Source: an uncultured bacterium (GTDB lineage: Bacteria > Patescibacteriota > Minisyncoccia > Minisyncoccales > UBA5738). From it: 49,643 bases of DNA. The position numbers and the translations under genes are program-made. The DNA is taken from NCBI GenBank assembly GCA_903847095.1, contig CAINCQ010000038.1, positions 1 through 49,643 of the forward strand. Reading direction: 5' to 3'. Shown here in pieces: positions 2,942 through 23,137 of this stretch; within the stretch, counting starts at the first letter, position 1, and the number at the start of each line of letters is the position of its first letter. The notes under the pieces are model-generated. The model searched no databases. It was given only the letters and a program-made list of their open reading frames with translations, and had not been told where the DNA came from.

Positions 2942-3109
2942 ATTAGACCTACTACTTAAATATTTCCTACTGCAATTTTCATATTCCGGCTACGCTAAAT
3001 TCATCGCTCGTCGACATACTTAGCTTAAGTATGCCTCCTCGTTCTTCATTCGACTCGCTCGAAATCTGGAACTTTCGCTACGGAAATATTTGAGCAGTAA
3101 GTCTATTAA
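2942..3109 (+). repeat. palindromic element with terminal inverted repeats, copy 1
   Basis: TTAGACCTACT...CAAATATTT-type ends are inverted; shares several long blocks with the reverse complement of 22876-23137. Confidence 0.85.
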
Positions 3110-3120
3110 AACAAAACAAT

Positions 3121-3666
3121 ATGGACCAAGCCAACAATCCGATAAAAAACCTTGAGGAATTCGTGGCTAAAGTCGACGAGATGAAAAAGAAAGACAAAAT
3201 GGACCTGTCCAGCGACCAGGACCTTTCCCTGGCCATAATGAATCTTGTTTCGATCGAAGAACACTTTTTTTTCACGGGCGCCAAAACCGGAAAAACCGAA
3301 TATTATGATTTCATCCAGGAAGTCCGAGAAATACGCAAAGAGCTTTTGAAAAAAATCATCAAAGAATACGAAGGCGAAGTCTGGTGCATTTCAAAACACC
3401 TGCTTGCCGCCTCGATGCGCCTGATGGAAGTCGGAACGAAACAACTCAACATGGGCAACAAGGAAACCGCCTACGACCTTTTCAACAAAGCCTATAATCT
3501 CTATTCCCTGTTCTGGGGCCTGAATATGAAACTGGTAAAAACGGAAGATATTAAAAAAATCTCTGCCGACGCGATTAACAAGCACGACACGGATCCCGAA
3601 CCCAAAGGATTATTCGCCCGCCTCGGCTCCGTAGTCAAAAAAGCCCTCAATTGCTGCATCGAGTAA
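3121..3666 (+). CDS. hypothetical helical protein, 181 aa
   Basis: Long ORF with soluble helical composition; followed by a strong terminator. Confidence 0.6.
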   Translation: MDQANNPIKNLEEFVAKVDEMKKKDKMDLSSDQDLSLAIMNLVSIEEHFFFTGAKTGKTEYYDFIQEVREIRKELLKKIIKEYEGEVWCISKHLLAASMRLMEVGTKQLNMGNKETAYDLFNKAYNLYSLFWGLNMKLVKTEDIKKISADAINKHDTDPEPKGLFARLGSVVKKALNCCIE

Positions 3667-22527: not shown

Positions 22528-22869
22528 TTAGCAGGTTAAGTGGAACAAGCCTACCACCCGCTTCCCTTCCGCCGCGTTTTCGTTGAAAATCGAAACCGCC
22601 TTGCCGGTTTTATCGATAGCCAGGTTCAGTCCTTTTTCGATGATCGCTTTCGTCGCGTCTTCCGAAACATTGGCGATACCGTCGGCTCCCGTACCGATAA
22701 CGATGATCTCGGGATTTTGGCTGATCGCCAATTCAACATCGGGGATATCCACGGTATGGGATTTTTTCCTCTGCCAATTCACTACGGTCCCGTTCCAGAA
22801 TACCGCGATGTCCTTGCGATACTCCTTGCCATTAATGGCCATACAGCCGAATTCGTAATGGTTGACCAT
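22528..22869 (-). CDS. MTH938/DUF498-like protein
   Basis: VNHYEFGCMAINGKEYRKDIAVF...NPEIIVIGTGADGIANVSEDATKAIIEKGLNLAIDKTGKAVSIFNE; true start taken as MVNHYEF. Confidence 0.85.
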   Translation of the reverse strand: MVNHYEFGCMAINGKEYRKDIAVFWNGTVVNWQRKKSHTVDIPDVELAISQNPEIIVIGTGADGIANVSEDATKAIIEKGLNLAIDKTGKAVSIFNENAAEGKRVVGLFHLTC

Positions 22870-22875
22870 AAGATT

Positions 22876-23137
22876 ATTAGACCTACTGATCAAATATTTT
22901 CGTAGCGAAATTTCCAGATTTGAGCGACGCGGTAATCCGCAAGTCCCGAGTACCCCCGAGGGGCGAGCCGAATGAAGAACGAGGAGGCATACTTAAGTTA
23001 AGAACCTTGATCTCTCTATGCTCGATAAAGCATGTCGATGAATGATGAATTCGGCGTAGCCGGTTCCCGCGGGCACCGCTAATGCGGGGATAATATGGAA
23101 ATTGCAGTAGGAAATATTTGATCGGTAGGTCTATTAG
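22876..23137 (-). repeat. palindromic element with terminal inverted repeats, copy 2 (expanded)
   Basis: Reverse complement matches 2942-3109 in ordered blocks, with three extra internal segments. Confidence 0.85.

Follow-up and report, generated by a model that had tools for sequence, protein, structure and literature searches.

What is a 160-bp palindrome doing in front of a start codon? The stretch of DNA analysed here (the window, 49,643 nucleotides from a patescibacterial genome) carries such a palindrome in the gap before a gene starting at 3121, with a second copy elsewhere in the window. The original prediction offered two readings, a non-autonomous mobile element (MITE-like or REP-like) or a structured regulatory leader. 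We therefore asked if the palindrome is real, if it moves, and if it has any relationship to the gene that follows it.

The palindrome and its position relative to genes

We found that the inverted arms, the internal perfect hairpin and the second copy that had been described are all present in the sequence, thus the observation holds. The arms are 27 nt long and 85% complementary. Reading the ends against other copies showed that the element itself is shorter than first described (2942-3109), since that interval includes the duplicated ATT on each side. The second copy lies in the opposite orientation and is larger (254 bp) because extra small hairpin arms are inserted at matching places in both halves of its core. 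To determine if the folding exceeded that expected by chance we compared each strand with shuffled sequence. Both strands folded far better as RNA than shuffled sequence, with z = -4.7 for the plus strand and z = -7.0 for the minus strand.

Features of the element and of related loci (positions without a genome prefix are those of the window; G and C numbers denote genomes and contigs)
Feature	Position	Strand	Detail
Inverted arms	2941-2967 and 3082-3108		27 nt
Left target-site duplication	2942-2944		ATT
Element	2945-3104		160 bp, ends 16 nt before the start codon at 3121
Left terminal inverted repeat	2945-2966	+	22 nt, AGACCTACTACTTAAATATTTC
Conserved core	2967-3082	-	116 nt; the structured strand is the minus strand
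Central helix, 3' side (minus strand)	3000-3014	-	tandem G.A pairs, faces 3034-3049
Apical perfect hairpin of the core	3015-3033		CATACTTA-GCT-TAAGTATG
Central helix, 5' side (minus strand)	3034-3049	-	ATGAAGAACGAGGAGG, tandem G.A pairs
Right terminal inverted repeat	3083-3104	-	22 nt
Right target-site duplication	3105-3107		ATT
Surroundings of the second copy	22867-23136		between a nitroreductase stop codon, which overlaps the duplication, and the start of a DUF498 gene 9 nt away
Duplications of the second copy	22876-22878 and 23133-23135		ATT
Second copy	22879-23132	-	inverse orientation, core 22898-23107
Other copies in the same genome	C39:6729, C29:8517, C39:34482		
Degenerate remnant	G000:C24:80218-80253		one end and the start of the core only
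Palindromes made only of the two ends	G002:C1:259031-259066 and G003:C50:20340-20375		36 bp, near-perfect, TAGACCTACTGCGTAAATATTTACGCAGTAGGTCTA
Partner IS locus (L185)	G195:C25:47392-48575		IS5-like IS, interrupted

To test if the element acts as a leader of the gene at 3121 we examined the same site in relatives. In G001 (same genus) and in G002, G003 and G004 (same family) the orthologue of this gene has the same upstream gene, a short gap and no element. The original prediction had pointed to the absence of an obvious Shine-Dalgarno before 3121. This is correct, however the orthologues without the element show none either, so this says nothing about the element.

We then asked if copies are placed with respect to genes. 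Of 129 placed copies 93 lie between tandem genes, 20 between divergent and 16 between convergent genes, as in the surrounding intergenic space. The core faces the downstream gene 69 times in the same and 64 times in the opposite sense, and the median distance to the start side (37) is about that to the stop side (35). Genes were called by a simple ORF rule, thus single distances are approximate. Many copies do lie within 30 nt of a start codon, but this closeness is what short A/T-rich gaps would give. In one end subtype (AGACCTCTTGC) the right end directly abuts a start codon, with the TAT duplication supplying the AT of ATG (GGTCT-TATG). We observed at least six such genes, always at the right end (loci L065, L066, L071, L075, L091 and L162 in genomes G181, G009, G043, G053, G440 and G113). 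Taken with the empty sites in four relatives, the leader reading is not supported and is largely refuted. By eye, no T-run follows the hairpin as in a Rho-independent terminator. Some copies have a short open frame on the minus strand, but, also judged by eye, this frame has stops in distant members and an encoded small peptide was set aside.

Mobility, ends and a possible partner insertion sequence

The genome (1.35 Mb, 42 contigs) holds five copies, two of them in the window. The sites without the element in four relatives indicate that the element most likely inserted in the lineage of the window. To test for target-site duplication we collected 63 copies with AGACC/GGTCT ends. We found that 41 have identical 3-bp flanks, mainly ATT, AAT, TAT and AGT, against 12 expected when flanks are shuffled (maximum 21 in 2000 shuffles). 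Of these 41 duplications 31 have the form ANT, as do those of the ISL2 group of the IS5 family. The two near-perfect palindromes that consist only of the ends have lost the core, as by recombination between GTAAATATTT repeats.

We next sought an autonomous IS with matching ends. In G193 the ends TAGACCTGTCCCTAAATAA occur in many pairs that bound elements of ~160 bp. In its sister species G195, which belongs to another genus than the window, the same 19 bases, identical to those of at least 15 short elements in G193, bound a 1102-bp IS of the related end type TAGACCTGTCCC. This IS encodes a DDE_Tnp_4 transposase (1.1e-25; the IS5_4 match was below its NCBIfam cut-off) and is flanked by a 3-bp ACT duplication. 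The IS is itself interrupted near the start of its gene by an 81-bp element with similar ends (TAGACTTGTCCCTAAATAA), and a second copy of that element sits directly beside it. The ends of this IS, checked by eye only, show no core sequence. The features of an IS5-family derived element are thus present for a related end type and not for the ends of the window element, for which a pattern search of G000-G004 found no pair of ends at IS distance. The DDE_Tnp_1 elements of G002 were considered as partners but their ends are only loosely similar. Most carrier genomes tested have no DDE_Tnp_1 or DDE_Tnp_4 transposase, the families searched for, including genomes with many and partly identical copies such as G055, G402, G359 and G286, so that for most copies no moving enzyme was identified.

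The core, its predicted fold and its distribution

We found that elements share the middle part of ~115 nt more than their ends. Core length is 112-119 nt in 128 of 141 copies, and whole elements are most often 160-165 bp. In G002 alone the core is held by ends of the types AGACCTGCTGC, GGGTCTGTTGCC, GAGGCTGTCTG and GAGAGCGT. Between types, ends are 42-71% and cores 70-88% identical; between end type a and types b, d and b4 of one family, end identity is 0.42-0.67 and core identity 0.78-0.84. Shuffled sequence gives about 55% (ends) and 59% (cores) in the same measure, so the end figures are near background, while over all pairs of copies the means are 0.65 for ends and 0.70 for cores. Duplication length also differs. 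Duplications are 3 bp for AGACC ends and 5 bp for GGGTCTGTTGCC ends (ATATT, ATAAT, TTGTA, TTAGA, TATAA and others). A single core in G193 lies between IS982-like ends with an 8-bp duplication (ACTTGAAG), and these ends match those of an IS982-like IS in G195. The core therefore sits inside at least four kinds of inverted ends, although different end types may be distant relatives rather than swapped ends.

To determine how widely the core occurs we searched genome samples with a covariance model (R1). The core was found in 43 of 247 genomes of the order (E<=0.001), and in 90 of 387 of the class and 43 of 382 of the phylum (E<=1e-5). It occurs in other classes too, patchily and often in many copies. 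Phages and plasmids gave no match. The samples overlap, so the counts are not additive. Many copies in G840, G676, G848 and other genomes of the phylum lie at the very ends of contigs, thus the repeat probably breaks assemblies and the copy numbers are underestimates.

We then tested if the fold is conserved. On 103 distinct cores 92.9% of cells pair and 26 of 28 pairs change on both sides, including all 6 pairs of the apical helix. The covariation score is 0.556 against 0.178 for shuffled and at most 0.101 for slid alignments. The alignment was fitted to the model, which favours these figures, however a small MAFFT alignment made before any model existed gave double changes at 20 of 28 pairs. 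Two of the 28 model pairs (outermost) are not real and were dropped from later counts. Part of the covariation could come from palindrome-correcting mutation (template switching) without selection on a fold, and single-mismatch intermediates are rare compared with double changes. Correction would, however, erase the G.A mismatches described below, yet these are among the most conserved positions, in several classes of the phylum. This suggests that such mutation is an unlikely explanation for the pairing as a whole.

The apparent symmetrical 14 x 14 bubble around the apical hairpin is not open. On the minus strand it is a helix in which G.A pairs come as tandem GA/AG steps (columns 34/35, 37/38, 41/42 and 44/45), separated by Watson-Crick pairs that covary. 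At the innermost step G.A is kept in 77% and 89% of cores. Two further internal loops are GA facing G-pyrimidine-A, kept in 94 of 101 and about 89 of 103 cores. On the plus strand all these are C.T clashes, so the structured strand is the minus strand. Members from other classes keep the same sequence motifs. Tandem GA/AG steps form sheared pairs in nucleic acids, and by analogy would do so here.

Since the structured strand could be RNA or single-stranded DNA we compared the two. One possibility, held tentatively, is that the core is a functional small RNA read from the minus strand and carried by a transposon, with the tandem G.A pairs as motifs bound by a protein. Consistent with this, the minus strand folds better as RNA than the plus strand and better than as DNA (z = -3.8), the GA/AG order is typical of structured RNA, and in the central helix minus-strand G.U exceeds A.C 66 to 15. 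In contrast, over all stems the excess is weak (137 to 82), so that these counts do not choose cleanly between RNA and DNA, orientation to neighbouring genes is random, and no match to a curated Rfam model was found. A somewhat less likely possibility is that the core acts as folded single-stranded DNA or as a cruciform that brings the two ends together, or is bound by a replication or uptake factor, and so helps any transposase that recognises the ends. The whole element, ends included, is one long hairpin of narrow length, its core is shared by end types with different duplication lengths, and the strand preference is weak over most stems. However the DNA folding energy is modest and no enzyme was identified.

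A probable MITE-like element and its relation to known families

Our data suggest, with a probability of roughly 0.82, that the element is a non-autonomous, MITE-like DNA transposon that carries a conserved structured module. In this view its ~22-nt inverted ends (AGACCTACTGC...) are of the kind found on IS5-like DDE transposons, whose transposase would insert it in trans into A/T-rich gaps between genes and duplicate 3 bp of target (mostly ANT). Between the ends the core would fold into a long rod of Watson-Crick stems interrupted by tandem sheared-type G.A pairs. Since the same core occurs with other ends and other duplication lengths, its conservation does not depend on one transposase. Comparison of sequences shows mobility (empty sites, duplications and identical copies), the conserved fold, the minus-strand G.A pattern and the sharing of the core between end types. 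That IS5-like transposases move the AGACC type is inferred, and any benefit of the core to the element, by joining the ends as a folded single strand or cruciform or as a transcript bound by a host or element factor, is speculative. The original interpretation was thus partly supported, as its mobile-element alternative holds while its leader and REP-like alternatives are not supported, and it missed the structured core shared by elements with different ends.

We compared the element with described systems one by one. Bacterial MITEs are 50-500 bp, lack genes, have terminal inverted repeats and direct repeats, form hairpins and target intergenic, A/T-rich sites (PMC10969869), as does this element. 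That review describes MITEs as decayed IS elements, whereas here the internal part is a conserved fold, not seen at the ends of the partner IS and shared by elements with several different ends across a phylum. The ends and 3-bp ANT duplications of the AGACC type resemble those of the IS5-like IS in G195, but the element differs from the IS5 family in having no transposase gene. ERIC and Correia (NEMIS) elements are also short intergenic palindromic mobile elements with transcript-level hairpins (PMC10969869). They occur in different hosts, no Rfam or sequence link to them was found, and those families have one end type each while several are present here. Coxiella QMITE2 has similar dimensions, with 23-29 bp ends and a 113-145 bp core (PMC10969869), but differs in having 7-9 bp direct repeats and in occurring in one species. 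REP or GTAG-tagged palindromes are likewise palindromic and intergenic (PMC3733652), but REPs are 20-40 bp without the duplications seen here, and the GTAG tetranucleotides of some copies are not conserved. Resemblance to box C/D or REP sequences was present in single copies only.

The element is an ordinary MITE in its ends and an unusual one in its core. We found no description of it in Rfam, in phage and plasmid records, or in literature searches limited to open-access papers, which also returned no account of a mobile element family shared among Patescibacteria, a very large, mostly uncultured radiation with small genomes. A single model finds it in roughly a tenth to a quarter of sampled genomes, so it is of practical use in annotation (repeats, assembly breaks and false ORFs). 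The conserved fold inside changing transposon ends raises the question of what a transposon gains from a structured core that outlives its transposase. A bolder reading, which remains tentative, is that of a phylum-wide selfish structure, in which a folded module with serial tandem G.A pairs has spread through Patescibacteria by lodging inside the ends of several different transposon families. In that case the module and not the ends would be the unit under selection, acting as single-stranded DNA or RNA through a factor yet to be identified.
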